Positions 17,839 to 32,273 of a DNA stretch of 33,600 nt are shown piece after piece (within the stretch, counting starts at the first letter, position 1; every line of letters starts with the position of its first letter). The stretch comes from Chitinivibrionales bacterium. GTDB taxonomy: Bacteria > Fibrobacterota > Chitinivibrionia > Chitinivibrionales > WJKA01. Location: contig WJLZ01000069.1 in the NCBI GenBank assembly GCA_014728215.1, positions 1-33,600 on the forward strand, in the 5' to 3' direction. The position numbers and the translations under genes were made by a program. Below the pieces are notes generated by a model. The model saw only the letters and a list, made by a program, of their open reading frames with translations. It had not been told where the DNA came from and searched no databases.

Positions 17839-18570
17839 TCAATATTTATAATTCGAATATTTGTAATACTGTATCTTTCTGTCGACCAAAGCCTGATTAA
17901 GAACAATACCGATTATTTTTTGCTTGATCACCGGGAATTCATCAATTTTTTTGTTAAGATCGATAATGTTGGTTTCCCCGGCTTTGGCAATAATTACATA
18001 TTTTGAAAAAAGCTCATGCATCACTACAGCATCGGTAACCGCGCCCAGAGGTGGCGAATCGAAAATGATAACATCAAAATGCTCCGACAATAATCGCTTG
18101 AGTTCTCTGAATCTTTTCGAGGTCAGTAATTCGGATGGATTGGGTACATTTTGTCCCGATGAAATTACTGTAAGATTAGGCACATGCGTTTTTTGAAACA
18201 ACACTGCCATAGTTTCCTTATTAACGGAAACATCGGATGAAAGATAATCCGACAATCCCATGCTTTTATTCAATACGAATAAATTATGCAGAACGCCTCT
18301 TCGTATATCACCATCGATAAGGACTGTCTTCAAATCCTGCTGTGCTATAGTAATCGCCACATTGGATGATAACGTGGATTTCCCAACTTCCATATCCAGA
18401 CTGGTGAATATCACACTCTTGTCTTCACATTCATGAAGAGCGAGTGTAATCTTAGTCCGGAGGGAACGGAATATTTCATTAATATAATCGGGAGTATAGC
18501 TTGCCGTGATGAGGTTACTATCGATCTCCCGCTTTCTTTTTGCTGACGTAGATATGAGTTTATTTTTCAT
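17839..18570 (-). CDS. BY-kinase (CpsD/CapB-type tyrosine autokinase)
   Basis: The 243-residue cytoplasmic protein shows the bacterial tyrosine kinase set. A Walker A-like loop lies at 58-66 (LDMEVGKST), Walker A' at 83-90 (VLIDGDIR) and Walker B at 167-171 (VIIFD, followed by SPPLG). A C-terminal tyrosine cluster has five Tyr among the last nine residues (QYYKYSNYKY). The usual loop reads PGEGKS; here MEVGKS replaces the Pro-Gly-Glu part, while the lysine and Ser/Thr that bind phosphate remain. The kinase normally pairs with the cytoplasmic end of a co-polymerase and cycles between phosphorylated and free states to control chain export. Its gene starts six bases after the co-polymerase stop, as last gene of the minus-strand operon. 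Confidence 0.9.
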   Translation of the reverse strand: MKNKLISTSAKRKREIDSNLITASYTPDYINEIFRSLRTKITLALHECEDKSVIFTSLDMEVGKSTLSSNVAITIAQQDLKTVLIDGDIRRGVLHNLFVLNKSMGLSDYLSSDVSVNKETMAVLFQKTHVPNLTVISSGQNVPNPSELLTSKRFRELKRLLSEHFDVIIFDSPPLGAVTDAVVMHELFSKYVIIAKAGETNIIDLNKKIDEFPVIKQKIIGIVLNQALVDRKIQYYKYSNYKY

Positions 18571-18576
18571 AATATA

Positions 18577-20241
18577 TCACGCTTTTTGATGAGGGTGTTT
18601 TTCAGGTTCAATTACCGGAATACATTCCAGCACTGTCATATCGGTCATCTTTTTCAACTCGAATTCAGTTCGTGCCGTTTTGTCGACCATGTCGACCAGA
18701 ATAGCAGGACCGAATGCAACTGCGCATCCAACACCCAGCCCTATGCCGATAAATTTGAGGACCATCAATAGTTTGCCCGGAGGAATTGGTGGAACGGCAT
18801 AGTCCATGACAAAAACATCGGCGACTTCAGCAGCATCGGCTACTTTGGCTTCATTATACCGCGTGAGAATTTCTGAATACAGTTCAGAATCGATAGATTG
18901 CTTGCTTTGCAGCTCGGCCAGTTGTCGTTCTTTTCCCGGAAGGCTTTGAAGGCGTCCTGAGAGGTGGCGGGCATTCTGTCTTTTTCTCTGTATTTCACTT
19001 TGAACATCACTGATATACTTATTGAGCGCCTGAAATGCCTGCTCTCCAATGCCGGCGATTTGCTGTCGTTTTTCCTGCAACACCGGATGAGTCCGTGCAT
19101 AATTCTGCGTTAATTCTTCCCGTTCCGCCTGCAACTGACTCAATTTTGAGCGGAGAACTGTTGCCTGAGTGTTATTCCGTGTTGAGAGAAAAAGAAGTAT
19201 TTCATTAACTGCCTGGAGCCTGCCATCACCTGTCGATCCGGTATAATATGACTGAAGCCGCTGGGCTTCTCTTAAATCCATATTACCGGCGGCATTATTT
19301 GCTTCGAGTTCCATAAGCTCGGCAACAGTCTGCTGCGCCCCCATATCAAGCCCGACCCGTGGATTGGTGGACAAGTACTCCCTCACTTTGCCTTCGGAAA
19401 CTGCAAGCTGTTCGCTCGCACGAGCCAACTGTTTCTTTAAAACCCGCAAAGCCTCCTTGGTCCGGCGCTTCCTGATACTGAGATTCTGTTCCACATAAAT
19501 ATTTGCAATTGTGTTGACAATTGTGGTAATCAATGTATAATCATGACCCTCGAGAGTTATAGAAATATGATCCCGTCCTCTCCGCGGATCAGGCCCCTCC
19601 ACCTCCATCATGCCAAGGACATAATCCACTGTTCTTCGTGTTGAGGAGACAAAAAATTCGAGATTGCCGGGCTCTTTCAGGAATTCCTGGGAAAAACGGA
19701 TGTACATGCCCGGAAGTTTCACTTCCTTCAATGCAGCAAGCGGACCGCTCTGGATCGCTTTGTCCTTTATACCCAGTTTCTCGTTTGTATAAAAAATACG
19801 GAACTTTTCATCACCATCATCAGTGTTGATCCAGAGACGATACTTCCCCATAGCGGCAGTTGTATCGGCATAACAGGAATCGAAAACTTCCGACCGTTCC
19901 TCATCTTTCACCCGAAGGCGGAGTGAAAGCTTATCGACCACGAGCCGCAGAAAACTCCGGCTACTGAGCAATTCTACTTTGCTGCTGTTCATTTCATAAA
20001 ATTCTTCAACCGGACTGTAGGCAGCAGGATTATCCATTCCGATAAGAACAGTAACCGGCAGTTCGGGTTTTAAGGGAAGAAATGCAAAAACGGCTATTGT
20101 AGCGACGAGCGCAACGGGCGGTCCTACAGAAACGATATACCATTTCCACCGCCATAACAGGTCGAGGTAGTGCCTGACATAATAGCCGACATCAAGTTCT
20201 TTCAACGACGTTTGCTGGGGTCTTCGTATTGGTTGTTGCAT
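18577..20241 (-). CDS. GumC/Wzz-type polysaccharide co-polymerase
   Basis: The 554-residue inner-membrane protein has a first transmembrane helix near 33-56 (WKWYIVSVGPPVALVAT) and a second near 490-512 (LLMVLKFIGIGLGVGCAVAF). The second is preceded by the Pro-rich motif PPIPPGK typical of Wzz/GumC. A long coiled-coil periplasmic region (about 240-470) lies between them. The cytoplasmic tail is short and carries no kinase domain; the kinase is the separate next gene. GAAGGTG lies just before the ATG. The protein should set chain length and link synthesis to the outer-membrane exporter encoded just upstream, 23 bases away. Confidence 0.9.
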   Translation of the reverse strand: MQQPIRRPQQTSLKELDVGYYVRHYLDLLWRWKWYIVSVGPPVALVATIAVFAFLPLKPELPVTVLIGMDNPAAYSPVEEFYEMNSSKVELLSSRSFLRLVVDKLSLRLRVKDEERSEVFDSCYADTTAAMGKYRLWINTDDGDEKFRIFYTNEKLGIKDKAIQSGPLAALKEVKLPGMYIRFSQEFLKEPGNLEFFVSSTRRTVDYVLGMMEVEGPDPRRGRDHISITLEGHDYTLITTIVNTIANIYVEQNLSIRKRRTKEALRVLKKQLARASEQLAVSEGKVREYLSTNPRVGLDMGAQQTVAELMELEANNAAGNMDLREAQRLQSYYTGSTGDGRLQAVNEILLFLSTRNNTQATVLRSKLSQLQAEREELTQNYARTHPVLQEKRQQIAGIGEQAFQALNKYISDVQSEIQRKRQNARHLSGRLQSLPGKERQLAELQSKQSIDSELYSEILTRYNEAKVADAAEVADVFVMDYAVPPIPPGKLLMVLKFIGIGLGVGCAVAFGPAILVDMVDKTARTEFELKKMTDMTVLECIPVIEPEKHPHQKA

Positions 20242-20264: not shown

Positions 20265-20996
20265 CTAACTACCATTATCATATTCTCTATAGAGAAGTAT
20301 GGTTGTAATTGTCGCTGTACTTGCCGTTATTGCAAAGCTCAATACAGGAAGAATATCACGCACGAAAATGTCCCATCCACGAGTAACCGGCCGGGGTGTT
20401 ACGCTAATCTGGTCTCCCGACTTGAAACCGATATCGCGAAGTGATTCTCCCGATTGATAATAGGGTATAACATTCTCCTTGTAAACTTTACCGTCCCGTT
20501 CCCATCTCGACTTCTCGATACCGTCCTCCCGTAACGTTCCGCCGCCCATATGGAAGAGATTCCACATGCTTGCGCGGGGGTCGACATAATAAAGACCGGG
20601 AGTATGAAACCCTCCCAGAACGCTCGCGCGAATCAGCGGCCTCACCTGAATGTTGGGATAGCGAAGATAATCGATATAGGCATCTTCGAGCATCTTCTGT
20701 ACCTGAATTTCTGCTTTCCCCGTAATATCCATCAATCCTATAACCGGTAAATCGACACACCCATTGCCGTCAATAACATAGGTACCATTGATAAACAATC
20801 CGGTATCAGGATATACCAAAACCTGAATTGCATCACCGGGCTGAAAAAGGGGATAGTGCCTGCACCGGCCGGATACTCCCTGTTGAGCCGTTCCGGCGGT
20901 GGTATCAGGATTCTGGGAGAATACACTGAAACATATGCACAAAACAAAACAGATCGTTGGTACAGTACGCTTTCCGTAAAGATTGTCTGCTTTCAT
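20265..20996 (-). CDS. Wza-family polysaccharide export protein
   Basis: The 243-residue protein has a signal peptide (about 1-28, VPTICFVLCICFSVFSQ) but no clear lipobox, unlike Wza itself. The poly-export (PES) domain begins YPLFQPGDAIQVLVYPDTGL, followed by a SLBB-like region (IRASVLGGFHTPGLYYV). A C-terminal hydrophobic segment (VLSFAITASTATITTILL) may span the outer membrane. ATG 20994-20996 was chosen because AGGAG lies seven bases upstream; a start at 21017 lacks this. It is adjacent to the co-polymerase and kinase genes, so it should form the outer-membrane exit of the same polysaccharide system. It is short compared with E. coli Wza (about 380 residues), which suggests one SLBB domain. 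Confidence 0.88.
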   Translation of the reverse strand: MKADNLYGKRTVPTICFVLCICFSVFSQNPDTTAGTAQQGVSGRCRHYPLFQPGDAIQVLVYPDTGLFINGTYVIDGNGCVDLPVIGLMDITGKAEIQVQKMLEDAYIDYLRYPNIQVRPLIRASVLGGFHTPGLYYVDPRASMWNLFHMGGGTLREDGIEKSRWERDGKVYKENVIPYYQSGESLRDIGFKSGDQISVTPRPVTRGWDIFVRDILPVLSFAITASTATITTILLYREYDNGS

Positions 20997-21077
20997 AACA
21001 ACACTCCTCAGTTCCATTGGTGAACAGGTATTCGATACGTGAATAAAAGCCCGGATAATCCGGTAAAGAACCTTGTC

Positions 21078-22049
21078 TTAACATGACCGGTAAAATCGTT
21101 TTTGCCGGTCTAACGAATGCAGATTCATTTCACGAAGTAAAAAATATAATTTAATCAATCCGATTTTACATCCTCCATACTGTTTTGTCATCAGCAGCTT
21201 TCGCACCTCGCCTGTTTTCATGGGGCCGTTATCGGCAATAATCCTTTTGCACCGTTCGTAAATCGACATATCCGCCGGATCATCCTGAGAACCTACATTG
21301 ACAGATGCACCCGGGGCCGATTGGACATGCTTTGCCTGCTTCTGTTTTACAAAACGAAGGCTTTCCGCTACAGTAGTATGTGCCGGAAGGATCTTATCAA
21401 ACTGGAGCAACTTGAAAGTGGAGGCGACATCGCCTTTCATTGCGCACAAAACCAGCAGCCCTCCCCCTGCAGTTTCAAGACGCTTATTTTCCGCTGCGAT
21501 AATGCCCCATCCGGCACTGCTGAGATATTCGAGCCTACTCATGTCGAGTATTATCGACAAATATCCTTTAGTATAGAGCGATTCAAAGGCTTTTTTCAGA
21601 TGTCTCGAGTTACTCTGATCGATATGCCCTCCCAAACGGACCGAACAGACCGGTATCTCCTGATCGACAACCCAGAAGACAGCGGCCATCTCATTGGTCG
21701 ATACAAGCAAATCGCCTCCGGGAGAAGAAACTGCCTCTGCCGGCCCTCCGGTACCTTTCTGCGAAGCGGTAACGGCGGTAGCTCCAACCGGCTGCAATTT
21801 CGGCTTTACTGTCGCTTGCCCCTTTGAGGGATTGGCTATTTCAGCACTTCCAAACTCGCCCGAGGTATCCTCTGTCAAAGCCTCTTCAAGCGTTACCCAC
21901 TTTCCCTTAATCAGCACTCGGCCCTGTTCGACATGATCGGCAACAAGCGTCCTTTTCTGCACAAGGTCCTTATGAAAAACCCATTGCCCCTTTTCATTCA
22001 GAACCATGCCTCGAAGGACTTTTTTGTGTATTTCGGCAAGCTTATTCAT
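21078..22049 (-). CDS. STAS-domain protein with shared C-terminal domain
   Basis: The 323-residue cytoplasmic protein has an N-terminal part with two short similar units (VLNEKGQWVF and VLIKGKWVTL), a low-complexity linker (60-115) and a STAS domain (about 120-235). A 63-residue C-terminal domain (261-323) aligns without gaps to the end of the FHA-STAS protein at 24240, with 17 identities. The STAS loop EYLSSAGWGI carries Ser178 at the position phosphorylated in SpoIIAA-type anti-anti-sigma proteins. The gene lies 82 bases upstream of the Wza-type gene on the same strand. An antagonist or scaffold role in regulating polysaccharide export is my inference; no anti-sigma kinase (SpoIIAB-like) gene is present in the window. 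Confidence 0.82.
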   Translation of the reverse strand: MNKLAEIHKKVLRGMVLNEKGQWVFHKDLVQKRTLVADHVEQGRVLIKGKWVTLEEALTEDTSGEFGSAEIANPSKGQATVKPKLQPVGATAVTASQKGTGGPAEAVSSPGGDLLVSTNEMAAVFWVVDQEIPVCSVRLGGHIDQSNSRHLKKAFESLYTKGYLSIILDMSRLEYLSSAGWGIIAAENKRLETAGGGLLVLCAMKGDVASTFKLLQFDKILPAHTTVAESLRFVKQKQAKHVQSAPGASVNVGSQDDPADMSIYERCKRIIADNGPMKTGEVRKLLMTKQYGGCKIGLIKLYFLLREMNLHSLDRQKRFYRSC

Positions 22050-22124
22050 AACCAGTATTTTCGAGTTTGCATCGTCTTGATTAATTAAATTGAATTTCCA
22101 GTCCCGATTATTCCCACTGTAGAG

Positions 22125-22529
22125 TTATTTTTTCTCTACCATCAACGTGTCGAATCGCTGAGCCATATTCCATCGCATCTCAAGCGTTTCATTCGACAAT
22201 TTACGTATTGCCTGCGAGCTTCTGCTAAGCTTGGCGTCAACCTGGCGGATTTTGTAATATCCCAATGCGCTCGCCGCCCCCAGGGCGAGTAAATTAAGAA
22301 TCAACAAAATATAGACAAGCGCACCAGCTCCACCGGTTTTAACCTTCAGTTTCTTTGCCACTTCCGATGCCCCGATTTTCTCAAGCTGTATTGCTGCATA
22401 TGCACATTCATTGGAATCGGGGAAATTATTGACAATATCTTTGTATATAATACAGGCTTCTCCAACTCTATTCTGCTCATAATGCAAACTATAAGCTTTT
22501 GAGTATAGTTCGAGAGGTGATTCAGCCAT
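22125..22529 (-). CDS. Small TPR-like membrane protein, function unknown
   Basis: The 134-residue protein begins with a TPR-like helix pair (ELYSKAYSLHYEQNRVGEAC, then IIYKDIVNNFPDS). It has one transmembrane helix near 68-91 (GALVYILLILNLLALGAAS) and a C-terminal helical tail of about 40 residues. It has no signal peptide, so the N-terminus is probably cytoplasmic. Its ATG overlaps the stop of the upstream gene (ATGGCTGA), so translation is coupled. It lies between the Thr-tailed 427-residue protein and the STAS protein and may be a membrane anchor for them; that is inference. Confidence 0.7.
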   Translation of the reverse strand: MAESPLELYSKAYSLHYEQNRVGEACIIYKDIVNNFPDSNECAYAAIQLEKIGASEVAKKLKVKTGGAGALVYILLILNLLALGAASALGYYKIRQVDAKLSRSSQAIRKLSNETLEMRWNMAQRFDTLMVEKK

Positions 22530-23805
22530 TGTCTTTCTTTTCTCCTTTCTCCAAATTCTTCTTGGAGAGAAACACTGTAGATGCTATATCATTTTTTGTC
22601 TGCGCTTTTTTAGATCGCCCCGGAGGAGAGGCCGACAAATTAATAATTATATCGTCGGATGCCTTGATGATCACCGGTTTATCTTCATCGGATTTTTCTT
22701 TATCCCTGTTCTTGTCACCGCGAGCGCGGTCAAGATCGCTCTGGGGTATGTATGAGGTGACCTCCGTATCCTTCGGTGGTTGTAGTGAACCCTTCAATTC
22801 AACGGTATCGGAAATTGAACGGATAATCTGCGTTTGAGTAGGATCGTCTTTTTCGGAATTGACAATAATTTCATTTGAATCTTGAGCTTTTTGGGATTCT
22901 TTATGTTTCCTGAGTTCCTTTTGCCGGATAAAATCGGTTCTTGTCAAATCCTCTACGGGTACGCCTCGTGTCTGTTCCGGGGCACCCTCTCCAGACACCG
23001 GCGAATTGATAACAACCTCATCATCTTCTCCAACCGCGATCGATTGCTCTTTATGGATGGCGGTCGTTCTTGCCTCCCCCCGCGCAAAAGATACGGATTC
23101 AGATGATGCATACGGCCCATTTTTAATATGGTTCTGAAGGATATCAGCAATTTTGCCTGCTTCATCAAGAGATTTTCGATATTCCTCGATACGAGCGAAC
23201 ATTCCCGTATACAGGTTTTTCATTTCGCAATTCATACAATTCCAGGCATCTTCAAAGGCATTTTTCACCTGTACCAGAGCGACCGTCCGTTTCCGGGTGT
23301 GACCGCAGAAGACGGGATAATTGACACTTCGACACGCACCTCTCTGTGTGGTATATCTTTCTTTCGCAACTAGTTCGTCTAATATACCACCATCTTTTGC
23401 CGGACCCAATTCTACCCAGGGAGTTTCTTTAAGGTCCCACGCATCCTTGATAAATGCATTAATTTGAAGTAATTCCCGTTCATTAAGATAAAGTACCTTA
23501 ACAACAATAATATCCCGACACTCAATAAGATAATTAGATTCGGTAATTTCTTTATCAGGATTATTCATTTTCGATTGAATAATCGAGGCAATCAGGTCGC
23601 CGGGAAGAGATACGCTATAATTCAGAGCATATATCTCTTTCACCGAATGAAAGATTTCGACCATCTCCTTTGCATACATTTCGAATCGGGATTTCAGCGA
23701 TGAATAATTGTTTTCAATTGAATTCAGCGTTTCGATAGCAAGCCCCAGAGAGTCCAGCTGCTTAGGGCTAACGCCGTATTTGTCGAAAACTGCCCTTTCA
23801 TTCAT
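22522..23805 (-). CDS. Unknown 427-residue protein with Cys cluster and Thr-rich disordered tail
   Basis: No family is recognised. Residues 1-230 look folded and helical, with Cys96, Cys158, Cys167, Cys190 and Cys193; the last four (ACRS, FCGHT, NCMNC) could bind a metal. Residues 231-427 are polar and look disordered. In this tail a short hydrophobic motif recurs three times in acidic surroundings: DDEVVINS (261-268), NEIIVNS (311-317) and DDIIINLS (384-391). Eight of the 12 Thr in the tail have Ile, Leu or Asp three residues later (Thr247, 288, 290, 325, 334, 350, 403, 410), the spacing preferred by FHA domains for phosphothreonine. The gene is first in the six-gene polysaccharide operon and divergent from an FHA-STAS gene. 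I infer it is a phospho-regulated adaptor. No Ser/Thr kinase gene is in the window. Confidence 0.75.
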   Translation of the reverse strand: MNERAVFDKYGVSPKQLDSLGLAIETLNSIENNYSSLKSRFEMYAKEMVEIFHSVKEIYALNYSVSLPGDLIASIIQSKMNNPDKEITESNYLIECRDIIVVKVLYLNERELLQINAFIKDAWDLKETPWVELGPAKDGGILDELVAKERYTTQRGACRSVNYPVFCGHTRKRTVALVQVKNAFEDAWNCMNCEMKNLYTGMFARIEEYRKSLDEAGKIADILQNHIKNGPYASSESVSFARGEARTTAIHKEQSIAVGEDDEVVINSPVSGEGAPEQTRGVPVEDLTRTDFIRQKELRKHKESQKAQDSNEIIVNSEKDDPTQTQIIRSISDTVELKGSLQPPKDTEVTSYIPQSDLDRARGDKNRDKEKSDEDKPVIIKASDDIIINLSASPPGRSKKAQTKNDIASTVFLSKKNLEKGEKKDNG

Positions 23806-23957
23806 ATATTCACTCCTTTTGCCGTTTTACGTAGTGCCGATTTTTATGCCGAACAGCAAATATCACGGCATGTGATAGGATGCCGGTTGCTTTCATATAC
23901 AATTAGTATACAATATGCATCGTTCAATATACAGCAGGGATGATCAAAATATGTATA

Positions 23958-23986
23958 GTATTATACCAGATATTATTGTATAATAC
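23958..23986. repeat. Nine-base inverted repeat in the divergent control region
   Basis: GTATTATAC (23958-23966) and GTATAATAC (23978-23986) are exact reverse complements with 11 bases between; the arm centres are 20 bases apart, about two helical turns. Each arm contains a TATAAT-like hexamer, on opposite strands. This fits an operator that could silence both directions, but no good -35 partner is visible for either hexamer. Confidence 0.5.
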
Positions 23987-24133
23987 TTACACTCCTTCAG
24001 CATTGAAAAAAGTTGCAAAATCCATGCCATGCTGTTCGAGGCATAATTGTTGCATAATCAATTTTACTCGACAGGAAAAATCTGTACAGAATTCATCCTG
24101 ATTAAAGGTATGAGAAAAAATTTTTATTTCCAT
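23987..24133 (-). CDS. Possible small protein (48 residues)
   Basis: An open frame from ATG 24133-24131 to TAA 23989-23987 would encode a 48-residue peptide (begins MEIKIFSHTFNQDEFCTDFS, ends FFNAEGV). Its composition looks protein-like rather than random, with three Cys, but there is no convincing ribosome binding site. It lies 181 bases upstream of the 427-residue protein on the same strand. Called only as a candidate. Confidence 0.25.
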   Translation of the reverse strand: MEIKIFSHTFNQDEFCTDFSCRVKLIMQQLCLEQHGMDFATFFNAEGV

Positions 24134-24144
24134 ATCTTATTTTA

Positions 24145-24174
24145 TTGCGGGCGAGTATGACAATCCTTTATAAA
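24145..24174 (+). promoter_or_regulatory. Weak promoter candidate for the FHA-STAS gene
   Basis: TTGCGG at 24145-24150 and TATAAA at 24169-24174 are 18 bases apart, about 65 bases before the ATG at 24240. The -10 matches in five of six positions, the -35 in only three. Confidence 0.28.
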
Positions 24175-24239
24175 TAGCTTGCTTATCGGGCCAACCCATA
24201 ACATAATTTTATTTAAAAGAGCCCAGAGAGAGTGATTGA

Positions 24240-25481
24240 ATGGCGATTCTGATATTACAACGCGATAATAAAAAAGTTGGCGCCTATGTTATGGACAAGA
24301 CCATAGTTACCATCGGCCGCGGCCATGATAATACTATTTCCATTGCAAATGAAAGCGTATCACGCCACCATTGCAGGATTGAAAAAACTGATGAAGGATA
24401 CGCGATTACCGATCTTGGCTCACTTAATGGAACATATGTCAATGATAAGCAGATTAAACGTTCTCCCCTTACCTTTGGTGACAAAATCCAGATCAGTACC
24501 TACTCGCTTGTTTTTAAAAAGGATGAAGAAAATGAGCAGGAAGGAACTGCTGAAGAAAAATCCCCGGAAAATGATTCACCAGCCCTCCGGGAGCGGGAAG
24601 CTTCGGGTTCCAGCAAATCTGTCGCGGATCCGCTTGAGCATGTCAAATCGTTTTCCGGTTCTCCCGAAGAAGCACCTTTCCATCACGGAGGAGATAACGA
24701 TTTCTCGATTAAAAGCGAACTTCTCAGCTCAGAGCTGCTTCTGGTAAACATAAGCATCCAGGGATCTGTCGACCAGGAAAATACCAAAGAACTAAAACGG
24801 GTTTTTGAAGGTCTTTTCAGAGACGGAACGTTCAATGTTCTTATCGATTTGAGCAGAGTGACCTCAATCGGCAGCACAGGATGGGGTATCCTGGTAAATC
24901 AACTGAAAAAGGCTAAAGACGACCGCCGGATAATTGTTCTGGCTGATATGTCCCCGAAAATCGAAGAGCAATTTGAGCTTTTGGCACTCGATAATCTTTT
25001 TGATTGTTACCCCAGTGTGAATGAAGCCCTGACAGACCTTCATCAAAAACTCTTTGCCGCTGCCCCACGGGAGAAACCAACCCTCATGGCACCTCCCAAA
25101 ACTGAAACAATAGGGGAAGCAGCTTTTGTATCGCCTCTTGCTGAAGAGCCCCACTCGATTGAAGAGGAAGCGCAAAAAGAATCTACTGAAGAACCTGACC
25201 GGGAACCGACAGATGATCTTCAGTCTCAGTCGGTATCGCCGCAACAATCCGTCGAAACCGCACCGAAAGAAGAGATCGATAAGCAAAACCTTCCGGTGCA
25301 TGATAAAATTAAAATGATTATCCTCGAAAACCCCTTTTTCGAAGACAAAGAGATCAGATTACGTCTTGCTTCGCCTGAGTATGGGAAAGTAAAAATCGGC
25401 AGGTTAAAATTCAGATCAATGCTCAAGACCATGAACCTGGAAACACGGGAAAAGCGATACCAGTATTTCAAAATGATGTAA
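24240..25481 (+). CDS. FHA-STAS fusion protein with shared C-terminal domain
   Basis: The 413-residue cytoplasmic protein starts with an FHA domain (about 5-95). The phosphothreonine-binding residues are in place: Gly-Arg of IGRG (25-28), Ser-Arg-His of VSRHH (40-44) and Asn-Gly of LNGT (62-65). An acidic linker (95-155) leads to a STAS domain (about 160-275) with SIGSTGWGI and Ser212 at the classic phospho-acceptor position. A second Pro/Glu/Gln-rich linker is followed by the 63-residue C-terminal domain (351-413; key motif YGKVKIGRLK, then MNL). The last domain matches that of the STAS protein at 21078. The gene is divergent from the polysaccharide operon. I infer that FHA reads phosphothreonine on a partner, possibly the 427-residue protein. 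Confidence 0.87.
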   Translation: MAILILQRDNKKVGAYVMDKTIVTIGRGHDNTISIANESVSRHHCRIEKTDEGYAITDLGSLNGTYVNDKQIKRSPLTFGDKIQISTYSLVFKKDEENEQEGTAEEKSPENDSPALREREASGSSKSVADPLEHVKSFSGSPEEAPFHHGGDNDFSIKSELLSSELLLVNISIQGSVDQENTKELKRVFEGLFRDGTFNVLIDLSRVTSIGSTGWGILVNQLKKAKDDRRIIVLADMSPKIEEQFELLALDNLFDCYPSVNEALTDLHQKLFAAAPREKPTLMAPPKTETIGEAAFVSPLAEEPHSIEEEAQKESTEEPDREPTDDLQSQSVSPQQSVETAPKEEIDKQNLPVHDKIKMIILENPFFEDKEIRLRLASPEYGKVKIGRLKFRSMLKTMNLETREKRYQYFKMM

Positions 25482-25546: not shown

Positions 25547-25942
25547 ATGAAAAGCAAGAATGACAATCAGACTTCACCATGCACACGCTGCGAAGCCCGT
25601 TGTTGCAAACACATAGCGCTTCAAATAGAAACACCCTCCTGCAAACGGGATTATGACAATATCCGGTGGTTCCTTCTCCATAAAAATGTAAAAGTATTTA
25701 AAGACCACGACAATGAATGGCTGATTGAATTCAGTACAGAGTGCGAAAACCTCTTAAATAATCATCGCTGCGGCGATTATGAGAATCGCCCGAAAGTCTG
25801 CCGCGATTATCCCGGGAACGAAGAGACATGTGAATCCGACGATGATTGCTCTCCCTACAAACTCCTGTTTAGCTCCGCCCGGCAATTTGAAGAATATCTG
25901 GATAAAAAGAAAATCAACTGGCGATGGAAAAATCAGCAATAA
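25547..25942 (+). CDS. YkgJ/UPF0153-type cysteine-cluster protein
   Basis: The 131-residue protein opens with the family signature PCTRCEARCCKH (Cys12, Cys15, Cys19, Cys20) and has further cysteines downstream (Cys32, then TEC, RCGDY, KVCRDYP). The family is thought to bind iron-sulfur or zinc. The segment CGDYENRPKVCRDYPG is typical. It begins 65 bases after the FHA-STAS gene, on the same strand, without a strong ribosome binding site. The role is unknown; family members are often found beside unrelated genes. Confidence 0.85.
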   Translation: MKSKNDNQTSPCTRCEARCCKHIALQIETPSCKRDYDNIRWFLLHKNVKVFKDHDNEWLIEFSTECENLLNNHRCGDYENRPKVCRDYPGNEETCESDDDCSPYKLLFSSARQFEEYLDKKKINWRWKNQQ

Positions 25943-26926: not shown

Positions 26927-28921
26927 ATGAAAAGAGAGACTAATAAAGCCGAGGAATTTTTCAATACCGGCAATGAATGGCGTAAAACAGGTAACTATGA
27001 GAAGGCGATAGAAAACTACAAAGCTGCACTTGATATTCAACCCGATTTCTTTGCAGCCCACGCCAACTGTGGCGCAGCGCTCAGTGAACTTGGGTATTTT
27101 TCCAAAGCACTGCACCATTTCACCGAAGCGGTGCGGATCAAACCCGATCTTCCCGAAGCTCATAACAATTTAGGCCTGACCCTCCTCCGTACCGGTTCCA
27201 TCGATAAAGCGATCGATCATTTTCGCAAGGCGATTGCACATCGCCCCCATTCTGCAGCAATATACACCAATCTCGGAAAAGCGCTTGAACAAAAAGGGCG
27301 TTATAAAGAAGCAGAAGCACAATTTAACCGTGCGATTCATTATGATGGGAACTTTGTTCCTGCCTATATCGGCCTCGGAAACACCTTTGCCTGTCAACGA
27401 GTGTTCACCAGAGCAAAAGAAGCGTTCTACCGCGCTCTTAAACTAAAACCATCCAGCGCCGATGCCTGGTACGGGTTGGGAACCTTGATGAGAGAGCAGC
27501 ACCATCTCGATGAATCTGTTATGTGTTATAAAAAAGCGATCGGATACAATCCTCGGTCAGTCATGGCGTTGAACAACTGTGGCGAGGCCCTTCAGGAATC
27601 AGGGTGTATCGATGAGGCCGAATCATTGTACGACAAAGCATTGCAAATCGATCCTCATTGCGAGATTGCATACGGTAATAAAATTTATTGTATGAATTAT
27701 AATCCCCGATATTCCCCCCAGCAGATTTTTGAAGCCCACCAACGGTGGGGAGAAATTTTCGGGACCGCTGCCCCTCTGGTTACCTGTCATCAAAACGACC
27801 GGTCTCCAGAAAAAAAGCTTCGGGTCGGGTATGTTTCTCCGGATTTCTGCCGCCACCCGGCATCATATTTTTTCGAGCCCCTCTTTACATGCCGTAGCAA
27901 AGAACAGTATGAGATCTACGGTTATTCTCAAACAACCCGTGTCGACACACGCACCGAATACTTTCAATCTCTTGCGGACCACTGGCTCGATATTACAGAA
28001 ATGTCCGATCAGCACCTGGCATGCAAAATTCTGGAAGACCGTATCGATATTCTGGTCGACCTCGCCGGCCATACTGCCGGCAACCGCCTGCGTGTCTTTG
28101 CACCAAAACCTGCACCAATTCAGATATCTTTTCTCGGATATCCAAATACGTCGGGAGTTCCGGCTGTCGACGTCCGGTTTACAGACGACATTGCCGACCC
28201 GGAAGGCAGTGATAATTTATATACCGAATCGCTCGTGCGCCTGAAATCGGGGTTCTGCTGCTATGCCCCACCGGATTTTGCTCCTCCGGTTTCTCCTCTG
28301 CCCGCAGTGGAAAATGACTTTGTCACCTTCGGTTCCACCCACAGTCTTTCACGGCTTAATTTTGAGGTCCTTAATTTATGGGGAGAAATACTTCGTGCCG
28401 TGCCGCATTCAAAGCTTTTAATTCTCAGAAACACGCTAAGTGAAAATATTCAACAACGATACAAAGCTACATTCAAACAACTGGGTATCCCATTAGAGCG
28501 GATCATTCTGCAGAAGAAAATTCCGGGCGCGGGTCATCTGGCCGCATACCACCATATCGATATCGCGCTGGATACATACCCCTGGAGCGGGCATACCACC
28601 GCATGCGAAGCCCTTTGGATGGGTGTTCCGGTTGTGACCTTACTCGGGAACCGTCATGCAGGCCGGATGGTGGCCAGTGTCGTGACCAGGGCCGGATTTC
28701 CTCAACTGGTTGCCCGGTCTCGTGAGGATTATCTGCAGAAAGCCCGGGAACTGTCGCAGGACATACCCGCACTTTCATCACTCCGTTCAAAGGCCCGGGA
28801 AACCATGAGCAAATCCACCCTGTGCAATGGACCGCAATTTACTCAAGCGGTCGAAAATGAATACCGGGTTATGTGGCGGAAGTGGTGTTCAGACCGGGAG
28901 GAGTCCCCAGAAGCGGAATAA
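26927..28921 (+). CDS. SPINDLY/O-GlcNAc-transferase-like protein with TPR repeats (GT41)
   Basis: The 664-residue protein has about seven tandem TPR units (residues 7-244; for example ENYKAALDIQPDFFAAHANC). These are followed by the GT41 catalytic domain (about 295-655). Conserved pieces are RVGYVSPDFCRHP (299 on), DLAGHTAGNRL, APIQISFLGYPNTSG, and WSGHTTACEALWMGVPVVT (about 552 on). NRHAGRMVASV follows. Family members transfer GlcNAc or other sugars to Ser/Thr of proteins. Here the TPR would choose the protein. GGAG lies six bases before the ATG. It is 114 bases from a divergent response regulator. The target proteins are unknown; nearby candidates with Ser/Thr-rich regions are inference only. 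Confidence 0.9.
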   Translation: MKRETNKAEEFFNTGNEWRKTGNYEKAIENYKAALDIQPDFFAAHANCGAALSELGYFSKALHHFTEAVRIKPDLPEAHNNLGLTLLRTGSIDKAIDHFRKAIAHRPHSAAIYTNLGKALEQKGRYKEAEAQFNRAIHYDGNFVPAYIGLGNTFACQRVFTRAKEAFYRALKLKPSSADAWYGLGTLMREQHHLDESVMCYKKAIGYNPRSVMALNNCGEALQESGCIDEAESLYDKALQIDPHCEIAYGNKIYCMNYNPRYSPQQIFEAHQRWGEIFGTAAPLVTCHQNDRSPEKKLRVGYVSPDFCRHPASYFFEPLFTCRSKEQYEIYGYSQTTRVDTRTEYFQSLADHWLDITEMSDQHLACKILEDRIDILVDLAGHTAGNRLRVFAPKPAPIQISFLGYPNTSGVPAVDVRFTDDIADPEGSDNLYTESLVRLKSGFCCYAPPDFAPPVSPLPAVENDFVTFGSTHSLSRLNFEVLNLWGEILRAVPHSKLLILRNTLSENIQQRYKATFKQLGIPLERIILQKKIPGAGHLAAYHHIDIALDTYPWSGHTTACEALWMGVPVVTLLGNRHAGRMVASVVTRAGFPQLVARSREDYLQKARELSQDIPALSSLRSKARETMSKSTLCNGPQFTQAVENEYRVMWRKWCSDREESPEAE

Positions 28922-29180: not shown

Positions 29181-29320
29181 GAGTTTTGCTCTCTTTCATA
29201 TATTAAATATATTATTCGTAGTGATGATGGGGTTAATTCGGATGATCTCAACAGAACATGAATGATAGAGAGGTCGGTTGAAACGGGCCTTTAGTGGTCC
29301 ATTTCCTGCAAGGCAGTTGC

Positions 29321-31294
29321 GTGAAATCATTAAAAGAAATTCTCAAAGAAGCATTGAGCTATCACCAGCAAGGCAATTTCGACAAAGCAGAGGCAGCCTA
29401 TCGCTGCATTCTTAACGAACAGCCGGACAACGCCGACGCGCTTCATCTTTTAGGATTAATTGAATATCAACGGGGTAATGATAATTCTGCAATCGGCCTG
29501 ATCGCCCGTGCCGTTTTTTTCTCTCCTGAACGACCGGTATATCACTTCAATCTTGCAAATATCTATGCTGCCGGAAATAAGGCTTCCGAAGCGCTGTCGC
29601 ATTACCGCACAGTAGTAGAACTGGATCCGCGCAATGCCGATGCCTTCTTCCGGATGGGGAATATGTATCGAAAGAAAGGCCTGTTCAGCAATGCGCTCTC
29701 CTGCTATAGATCGGCAGTAGCAATCAGACCCGATTTCATCGAGGCGATTAATAATATCGGCGCCGCTCATAAAATACTGGGGATGTACCCTCAAGCAGTT
29801 TCGTGGTTTAAAAAAGCTGCGGAACTTCAGCCTCACAATGCAGAATGCAGAAACAATCTGGGAATGGCGTTCGTGGACTGCGGACGAACCGAAGAGGCGA
29901 TAACATGTTTTCGTACGGCATTACATTTAAAACCAACGCTCGTTCCTGCATATGTAAACCTCGGTAAAGAGTTGATGCTGCAGGGTAATCTTGACGATGC
30001 GCTGGAATGCTTTAATCGGGCCGTCAAATACAACCCCGATCATTATATTGCTCACGACAACCTTCTTATCTGTAAAAATTACATGCCTTCCCATTCTCCC
30101 CCGGAACTCTATTCCGAACACCTTCTATGGACCCATTCACATGCAGTAAAAATACGCGGGGAATTTAAAGCCAAACAAAAGCCCGCTTCATCCAGACGAC
30201 TCAGGATCGGATATATTTCCCCGGATTTCTATCATCACCCTGTTGCTAATTTTATGATCCCCGTTCTGCGCAACCATAACCATGTGCAGTTTGAAGTTTT
30301 CTGTTATTCGGACGTGAAAATCCAGGACCGTATCACGCACAATCTGAAAGGATACGCCGACACCTGGAGAGATACCATATCCCTCTCCGATCAGGAACTG
30401 ACCTCGCTGATAACTGATGACGGTATCCATATCCTTATCGATTTAACCGGCCATCTTGCAAACAACCGACTTTTGACCTTTGCCCGCAAACCCGCTCCGC
30501 TTCAGATCTCATACCTTGGTTATCCCTGCACCACCGGTCTTTCCGAAATCGATTACTACCTTACCGATGAAATTGCCGATCCCGCGGGTCAGGAGGAGAA
30601 CTACACCGAAGACCTGGTACGGCTCGAGAATTGTTTCTGCTGTTATGAACCGTCGGTTGAAGCTCCCGGGATTGGTCCCCTGCCCGCAAAAAATGCGGGA
30701 TTCGTAACATTCGGTTCTTTGCATAATCTGGCGCGTTTAAACAGCGACATACTCGAGTTGTGGAGCCGGGTGCTTCATGAAACACCATCTTCCCGTCTTT
30801 TGATTTTCAGAACAAACATGACCTCCGCTACAGCAAAGAGACTTCAGGCCTTTTTTACACGCAGGGGTATTGAAAACAACCGGATCCGGCCGGTCGATTC
30901 CTGTGACGGCAATTACCTTTCGATGTACAATAAAATCGATATCGCCCTGGACACCTTTCCCTGGAGCGGCCACACTACCGCTTGTGAAGCGCTCTGGATG
31001 GGCGTTCCCGTGATCACACTCACAGGGGACCGTCACGCAGGAAGAATGGTGTCGAGTGTCGTATCTTCGCTGGGCATGTCCTTTTTAGCGGCCGAATCAA
31101 AAGATCAGTATGTCGCAAAGGCAAAACAGTTGAGTGAGAATATCGGAAACCTGGAAGAAATCAGACGCTCATTGCGGGAAAGAATGTCGAAATCTCTTCT
31201 CTGTGATGGGATACAATTTACAGGAAACTTTGAAAAAACACTTCTTTCATTGTGGGGAAAGCAGCAATCAGATTACCGGACAGGCTTACGATAG
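29321..31294 (+). CDS. Second SPINDLY/O-GlcNAc-transferase-like protein with TPR repeats (GT41)
   Basis: The 657-residue protein is a clear paralogue of the one at 26927. It has seven TPR units (about 5-245; for example HYRTVVELDPRNADAFFRMG) and a GT41 domain. Matching pieces are RIGYISPDFYHHP (about 294 on), DLTGHLANNRL, APLQISYLGYPCTTG, WSGHTTACEALWMGVPVIT (about 548 on) and DRHAGRMVSSV. I chose GTG 29321 because AAGG lies about eight bases upstream; another GTG at 29294 in frame would add nine residues. It lies 101 bases before the second FHA-STAS gene on the same strand. Enzyme activity is expected from the family but not shown. Confidence 0.9.
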   Translation: MKSLKEILKEALSYHQQGNFDKAEAAYRCILNEQPDNADALHLLGLIEYQRGNDNSAIGLIARAVFFSPERPVYHFNLANIYAAGNKASEALSHYRTVVELDPRNADAFFRMGNMYRKKGLFSNALSCYRSAVAIRPDFIEAINNIGAAHKILGMYPQAVSWFKKAAELQPHNAECRNNLGMAFVDCGRTEEAITCFRTALHLKPTLVPAYVNLGKELMLQGNLDDALECFNRAVKYNPDHYIAHDNLLICKNYMPSHSPPELYSEHLLWTHSHAVKIRGEFKAKQKPASSRRLRIGYISPDFYHHPVANFMIPVLRNHNHVQFEVFCYSDVKIQDRITHNLKGYADTWRDTISLSDQELTSLITDDGIHILIDLTGHLANNRLLTFARKPAPLQISYLGYPCTTGLSEIDYYLTDEIADPAGQEENYTEDLVRLENCFCCYEPSVEAPGIGPLPAKNAGFVTFGSLHNLARLNSDILELWSRVLHETPSSRLLIFRTNMTSATAKRLQAFFTRRGIENNRIRPVDSCDGNYLSMYNKIDIALDTFPWSGHTTACEALWMGVPVITLTGDRHAGRMVSSVVSSLGMSFLAAESKDQYVAKAKQLSENIGNLEEIRRSLRERMSKSLLCDGIQFTGNFEKTLLSLWGKQQSDYRTGLR

Positions 31295-31394
31295 AGTAGC
31301 TGTCATAATCATTACATCACCATTACATTTTTCAGTTTTGGATGCCAATATAATATTTTTCTATAAAATTCTCTTTAATGGAGTCATCTGCACC

Positions 31395-32273
31395 ATGGCG
31401 ACCTTTACTCTCTATCGTGACGGCCGGGATTTAGGATCATACATAATCAACAGGGACGAAATCAGCATCGGGCGGTCCCGCAAAAACACCATATCCATTG
31501 CAAACAATGCCATATCACGACATCACGTACGTATCGTGCGAGAAAATGGGCAATATATCCTCTCCGATCTCGGTTCGCTGAACGGCACCTACGTTAACGG
31601 CAAAAGGGTCGATTCGGTGGAACTCTCAAATAGCGACAAAATCTCGATCTGCACCTATGATATACTCTATAAAACCGTTAATGACCGTACTGAAGCGGTT
31701 GCGGTTCAACAACCCGGAAGCAGTAAAATCGATAATGCTCATGCGATTTATGATGAATCCTCCGAAACCGGGGCATTCCATGAAACCCGCATTTTTGTGG
31801 AACATGATTATCAGCCCGATGAAAAAGCTTTGCAGTCTCAGACCGAAAGCCCCTTAACCAGAACCACAGCAGTGCCTACCTTTTCTCCGTCCAATGCAAA
31901 GCTTGGTCTTTCCCATGATGTCGCCCTTGAGACGGACACAACGTATCTCGACGAGCTTGATCTGGTTATAATCAACTTTAAAGGCACCATCGATTATGCC
32001 AACGTAAAAACGATTTCCGAACAGTTCGACAAACTTTTTGCCATTGGAACCCATAATCTTCTGATCAATCTCGAAAAACTCACTCTGATCAATACCACCG
32101 CCTGGGGAGTTCTGGTCAAATTGCTCCGTCTCCTTAAAGCCAGAAACCAGACAATCAAGCTGGCCAATATGCAAAGCGTCGTTTCCCAGCCCTTCAAGCT
32201 TCTCTCACTCGACAAGGTATTCGAAAATTACGACTCGGTTGAGGATGCGGTTGAGGCGTTCAGGAAAGGATGA
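31395..32273 (+). CDS. Second FHA-STAS fusion protein
   Basis: The 292-residue protein has an FHA domain (about 4-93) with intact binding residues (IGRS, ISRHH, LNGT), a Ser/Thr-rich linker (95-180) and a STAS domain (about 185-290). The STAS loop reads LINTTAWGV, so Thr234 takes the place of the usual phospho-Ser. It ends right after STAS and lacks the 63-residue domain of the protein at 24240. Its FHA is very similar to that of the first, including NTISIAN and LGSLNGTYVN. ATG 31395 was chosen: it begins the FHA domain exactly and GGAG lies upstream, although the frame is open for 87 codons more. It follows the second OGT-like gene. Confidence 0.86.
   Translation: MATFTLYRDGRDLGSYIINRDEISIGRSRKNTISIANNAISRHHVRIVRENGQYILSDLGSLNGTYVNGKRVDSVELSNSDKISICTYDILYKTVNDRTEAVAVQQPGSSKIDNAHAIYDESSETGAFHETRIFVEHDYQPDEKALQSQTESPLTRTTAVPTFSPSNAKLGLSHDVALETDTTYLDELDLVIINFKGTIDYANVKTISEQFDKLFAIGTHNLLINLEKLTLINTTAWGVLVKLLRLLKARNQTIKLANMQSVVSQPFKLLSLDKVFENYDSVEDAVEAFRKG

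Follow-up and report, generated by a model that had tools for sequence, protein, structure and literature searches.

A new C-terminal domain on STAS and FHA proteins beside a polysaccharide export operon in Fibrobacterota: a possible phosphothreonine-read control cassette

Wza/Wzc/BY-kinase systems are built from a standard set consisting of an outer-membrane exporter, a chain-length protein and a tyrosine autokinase. The same set is encoded in the window (the whole 33,600-nucleotide stretch of Chitinivibrionales DNA analysed here); by comparison with these systems, its kinase is separate from Wzc and three regulatory-looking genes precede the export genes. This raises the question as to whether these three genes, together with a divergently transcribed neighbour, form a control unit for exopolysaccharide export, and what part is played in it by a short tail found at the end of two of the proteins. 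The operon lies on the minus strand in the order 22522, 22125, 21078, wza, chain-length protein and BY-kinase (genes are referred to by the first of their coordinates). Its head (22522..23805) overlaps by 8 bp with the gene for a small TPR-like protein with a transmembrane segment (TPR-TM protein, 22125..22529; 134 aa); the third gene, for the STAS-tail protein (21078..22049; 323 aa), lies directly 5' of wza. The Wza-type polysaccharide export protein (20265..21017) matches Pfam Poly_export (PF02563; 39.8 bits, cut-off 28), while the Wzc-type chain-length/co-polymerase protein (18577..20241) scores just below the cut-off with GNVR (26.6 bits) and below the equivalog cut-off with TIGR03007 (99.9 bits). 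The BY-kinase (17839..18570) matches TIGR01007 (162.8 bits, cut-off 108) and harbors the Walker A, A' and B motifs (VGKST, IDGDIRRG and VIIFDSPP) as well as a C-terminal tyrosine cluster, YYKYSNYKY. On the plus strand, the gene for the FHA-STAS-tail protein (24240..25481; 413 aa) faces away from 22522 across a 434-bp gap (23806..24239), the presumed site of the promoters of both transcripts; the operon and its divergent neighbour are thus as the earlier note had read them. The STAS-tail gene and wza are separated by 60 bp, within which lies a small terminator-like hairpin, CCGGATTATCCGG (21051-21063, minus strand), T-rich after its end, which could tune the expression of the genes downstream. 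The arrangement of the cassette is new, although its parts are of familiar types, with the exception of one domain that is itself new.

This domain is the tail. Residues 261-323 of the STAS-tail protein (S type, 21081..21269, minus strand; terminal RFYRSC) and residues 351-413 of the FHA-STAS-tail protein (F type, 25290..25478, plus strand; terminal KRYQYFKMM) align without gaps, end flush at the C-terminus and are identical at 17 of 63 positions, all of which confirms their first description; the pair has a BLOSUM62 local score of 93, whereas 5000 shuffles average 23 (sd 4.4) and reach 47 at most. As the STAS domains of the two proteins are related too, the tail was searched separately, and this tail-only search retrieved a third copy in the source genome (G000), on another FHA-STAS protein elsewhere; a search of contigs with the full-length proteins yielded little apart from FHA domains. 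Profiles built from three (A1), 19 (A3) and 22 tails (A4) retrieve 22 strong copies. These come from 11 of the 168 Fibrobacterota genomes, each of the 11 belonging to the order of the window, and are distributed over seven genera and four families. The tail was not found in 392 and 379 genomes sampled from the phyla of a Planctomycetota and a Myxococcales record, two samples that include no internal positive control. It sits at the C-terminus, or within a few residues of it, in all 22 proteins. In 18 of them the profiles find STAS and/or FHA attached (11 STAS-tail, five FHA-STAS-tail and two FHA-tail proteins); the other four carry neither domain, and three of these represent a diverged third type with a terminal KRF.AY..G. 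In the 68-column alignment, Leu50 and Leu55 are invariant across the 22 copies. The latter is the Leu of Met-Asn-Leu, one of the residues that the earlier note had taken as fixed; the others that it named, Tyr-Gly, Lys-Ile-Gly and a later Lys, turn out to be strong preferences only (Tyr/Phe-Gly, [Ile/Val]-[Gly/Asn] and Lys60-Arg61).

The tail has no match above a curated cut-off in Pfam or NCBIfam and no family match in the PDB, in keeping with the proposal that the domain is new. Its identity with a known domain was rejected, the only matches being isolated, weak and below cut-offs (DnaB_bind, E 0.005; CUE, E 0.011; HTH_21, E 0.048). Homology to IS3/HTH_21 was not accepted either, the IS3 match (E 0.003) occurring in one of 19 members and the HTH_21 stretch being limited to residues 9-33; weak A4 matches at model positions 19-47 in open reading frames of about 900 aa from other families were discounted as incomplete. 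With the tail, a new domain family has been recognised that is specific to its lineage, all copies found so far being from a single order of Fibrobacterota.

What the tail does may be approached through its predicted fold. AlphaFold gives a confident model for the A3 family (pLDDT 93) with four helices (residues 8-18, 24-31, 43-52 and 58-67), a compact basic fold that is loosely helix-turn-helix-like; its net charge reaches +10, and K60, R61, R63 and R66 are conserved in the last helix. Searches of PDB and viral structures with this model gave nothing significant (best E 2.8, no Foldseek E <= 0.001), although helix-turn-helix or winged-helix regulators account for 10 of the 16 weak matches in the PDB and the alignment with a viral HTH-integrase model has a TM of 0.57. 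Winged-helix/HTH regulators, such as LmrR, the Lrp-type NMB0573 and HTH_21, thus resemble the tail weakly in fold and sequence, whereas the match is non-significant and a fourth helix takes the place of the wing, which led to the rejection of a classic winged helix, the first guess. The weak HTH matches and the basic, conserved last helix make DNA binding a lead only, and we think that binding of DNA by the tail at the divergent or export promoters is somewhat likelier than pairing between tails. No conserved palindrome was found in the divergent promoter, and two intergenic regions align poorly, with no obvious common site. Were the tail a pairing domain instead, F and S tails would bind each other and thereby tether the STAS protein of the export operon to the FHA-STAS sensor, without contacting DNA. 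Both types co-occur in five genomes (G000, G001, G002, G004 and G012), a third-type and an S-type tail are two genes apart in three more (G027, G031 and G039, in which the third-type gene is upstream of a TPR gene), and in a tree the F tails, with the third type, are broadly separate from the S copies; paralogy, however, accounts for the same co-occurrence, and G010 has one F tail only while G026 and G037 have only S tails. Pairing is an alternative worth keeping in mind, though a rather doubtful one.

How closely the tail is tied to export can be judged from its neighbourhood in other genomes. Among 40 genomes of the order surveyed, 23 contain 28 wza loci. A STAS gene is located directly upstream of wza in five of these loci (G000, G001, G002, G012 and G037), and in all five it bears the tail; at the other wza loci, some of which are cut by contig ends, no STAS lies within about 1.5 kb upstream. 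The gene order TPR-TM, STAS-tail, wza, wzc recurs, the wza-adjacent order being kept in three families, and homologues of the 22125 TPR-TM protein are found near tail genes in seven further loci. Likewise, the FHA-STAS-tail gene is divergent from a homologue of 22522 in G000, G001, G002 and G012. Wzc and the BY-kinase, split in the window, are fused in G012 and G037. In G012, the cassette is seemingly split over two contig ends (the end of L064 and the start of L073), a candidate join: C358 ends with the N-terminus of a STAS protein, and C856 opens with a start-less STAS-tail gene followed by wza and the fused Wzc-BY-kinase. Other tails lie away from wza (G010, G026, G027, G031 and G039), the third copy of G000 has no identified export gene alongside, and two more tails adjoin FemAB/GNAT genes, one of them also near relatives of a sugar aminotransferase and of an exosortase-type ligase. 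Because several copies are found away from wza, the link to export cannot be generalised, although it is genuine for part of the tail family and holds in about half of the genomes with tails. The earlier proposal of a link to export is upheld for the STAS-tail gene in the conserved wza operon of five genomes; specific to export the tail is not, given the five genomes with tails elsewhere and the third G000 copy.

The two proteins that carry the tails in the window are candidate switches. The FHA domain of the 24240 protein (residues 1-94; 24240..24521, plus strand; Pfam FHA 69.8 bits) has intact phosphothreonine-reader residues, GR, SRHH (SxxH) and NGT, and its closest solved relatives are GarA/OdhI. 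Its STAS domain (residues 163-268; 24726..25043, plus strand; 46.5 bits; GSTGWG) and that of the 21078 protein (residues 129-234; 21348..21665, minus strand; 53.1 bits; SSAGWG loop) both exceed the PF01740 cut-off, also match TM1442 and TIGR00377, and align with SpoIIAA, with a Ser retained at the phosphoacceptor position (DSSG-like loop). An FHA-STAS copy at L076 is without the STAS Ser and without one FHA residue. The FHA-STAS and STAS-tail proteins might be relatives of anti-sigma-factor antagonists acting in a general partner switch, for which the export operon would be one of several sites and the tail a lineage-specific accessory. The matches to SpoIIAA/TM1442 and TIGR00377, the tails away from export genes in five genomes and the presence of a tail-less FHA-STAS protein in the window are consistent with this, but the conservation of the wza-adjacent order in three families and the count of tail-less STAS genes upstream of wza (none in 28 loci) argue against it, as does the absence of a partner anti-sigma kinase among the Pfam-scanned cassette genes; we regard a general partner switch as distinctly unlikely.

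The operon head provides the candidate partner of the FHA domain. Pfam gives no confident match for its product (RelA_SpoT only at E 0.11); RelA_SpoT is weakly matched in two of four homologues, and a genome-wide RelA_SpoT search returns the same two places. Residues 1-239 (23089..23805, minus strand), modelled by AF2 at a pLDDT of 73, have RelP as best Foldseek match (E 2.5e-4, prob 1.00, with a TM of only about 0.4 on a model of this pLDDT), and nearly all of the top 45 PDB matches are alarmone synthetases. By hhalign, the 22522 family aligns with the small synthetases of relatives (E 2.6e-5; score 40.6, whereas 60 column shuffles reach at most 22), while nothing is found with the long RSH proteins. 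Small alarmone synthetases encoded by relatives (L167, L168 and L169; open frames of 412-560 aa) look intact in their motifs and have TPR-like repeat C-termini. Catalytic residues of RSH enzymes are those of RxK, the Tyr of GYxxxH and the Glu of ExQ. In the profile alignment, the 22522 product has SxS, Cys and Leu in their place, so that catalysis by it is unlikely, and we call it a pseudo-synthetase, with a predicted degenerate (p)ppGpp-synthetase (RelA/SpoT/SAS) fold. By comparison with RelP and RelQ, with which its N-terminal domain has the predicted fold in common, it is devoid of the catalytic residues and extended by a long, disordered-looking C-terminus with threonine motifs. These read T-[VI]-[FYLIVE]-[MLVIF]; the last one, within the candidate FHA ligand DIASTVFLSKK (residues 406-416; 22558..22590, minus strand), has a Thr (Thr410) that is invariant in four homologues. 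The enrichment of the motif (16 against 0.8 expected) is partly circular, as it was defined after viewing the sequences, and the motif is missing from L067 and L069. The earlier note did not recognise the degenerate synthetase fold of the operon head; this fold and the C-terminal T-[VI]-[FY] motif are additions of the present analysis, as are the GarA likeness of the FHA domain and the kinase gene in one relative's operon. That the head has retained the synthesis or binding of (p)ppGpp, or of a nucleotide related to it, the cassette then coupling export to starvation and not to phosphothreonine, is very improbable given the replaced catalytic positions, even though its top structural matches are alarmone synthetases, most homologues keep the Mg-site Asp and L064 keeps R-x-K.

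Taken together, the locus may be read, tentatively and at somewhat less than even chances, as a phosphothreonine-read control cassette for exopolysaccharide export. A Hanks-type Ser/Thr kinase would phosphorylate the pseudo-synthetase at the T-[VI]-[FY] motifs of its disordered C-terminus, and the FHA-STAS-tail protein would dock on that phosphothreonine through its GarA-like FHA domain, near the membrane by way of the TPR-TM protein. Both STAS domains, as their retained Ser suggests, would act as serine-phosphorylated on/off switches in the manner of SypA or SpoIIAA, the common tail would be an output or addressing module, and polysaccharide passing through Wza/Wzc with the BY-kinase would be raised or lowered. 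A phosphorylation-reading unit at the locus is plausible in view of the intact FHA residues, the candidate motifs and the kinase in the operon of one relative: in G012, and in this genome only, a Pkinase (Ser/Thr kinase) gene lies between the homologues of 22522 and 22125. In G000, Pkinase is matched 24 times, with two of the matches falling in the same frame. The fullest version, in which a dead alarmone synthetase is the phosphothreonine scaffold read by FHA-STAS and a paired or DNA-binding tail ties the STAS and FHA switches together and gates polysaccharide export in this lineage specifically, is unlikely to hold as a whole.

Of the known systems, PknG-GarA/OdhI, the closest solved kind of FHA to that of the 24240 protein, offers a likeness in its working parts, namely a Hanks kinase, TPRs and a TTSVF phosphosite (PMC8546545). 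The phosphosite peptide of GarA is SDEVTVETTSVFRADFL, in which the site reads TTSVF, and its kinase, PknG, has a TPR domain that helps in phosphorylating the FHA substrate (PMC8546545). In GarA, however, the phosphosite is on the FHA protein itself, and metabolic enzymes are the targets (PMC8546545), whereas the candidate ligand is here on another protein and the FHA domain is fused to STAS and tail. In Vibrio fischeri, a polysaccharide locus encodes SypA, which consists of a single STAS domain with a regulatory Ser in its loop and controls biofilm; SypE is its Ser kinase/phosphatase partner (PMC4517449, PMC10120452). The STAS gene of the window, upstream of wza in five genomes, is alike in genetic position and domain, and the cassette differs from SypA by its tails, FHA fusion and pseudo-synthetase. 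Since the mechanism of SypA was given as unknown (PMC4517449), a STAS protein with an output-like domain in an export operon provides a testable hint as to how STAS reaches polysaccharide production. A literature search did not find FHA and STAS together with polysaccharide, biofilm or BY-kinase, a weak negative given that few subscription papers were covered. If true, the proposed cassette would connect two kinds of signalling, phosphothreonine/FHA and STAS switching, with an export machine linked to a tyrosine kinase, all within one operon of a poorly studied phylum, and the pseudo-synthetase would constitute an unusual reuse of the alarmone-synthetase fold as a scaffold.

Several further features of these proteins and their surroundings deserve mention. 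The N-terminal motif of the STAS-tail protein, about 50 residues long (21870-22028, minus strand), consists of two G.V...G.W units without Pfam match, and the same motif occurs in proteins of L061, L063, L064 (9773-10177), L066, L067 and L069. Downstream (3') of the FHA-STAS gene lies a gene for a CxxCxxCC zinc/iron-chelating-type protein (25547-25942, plus strand), a neighbour kept in G001 (72% identity). The tail-less FHA-STAS protein of the window (31134-32273, plus strand; Pfam FHA 69.3 and STAS 59.1 bits) is encoded just after two TPR and glycosyltransferase-41 (OGT-like) genes (26927-28921 and 29294-31294); since the listed start falls inside the preceding gene, the real one is probably further on. 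Finally, an 838-aa STAS-tail protein of L074 (7057-9573) contains repeated [FL]EKT[IVL]L segments, which may represent a series of phosphothreonine sites.
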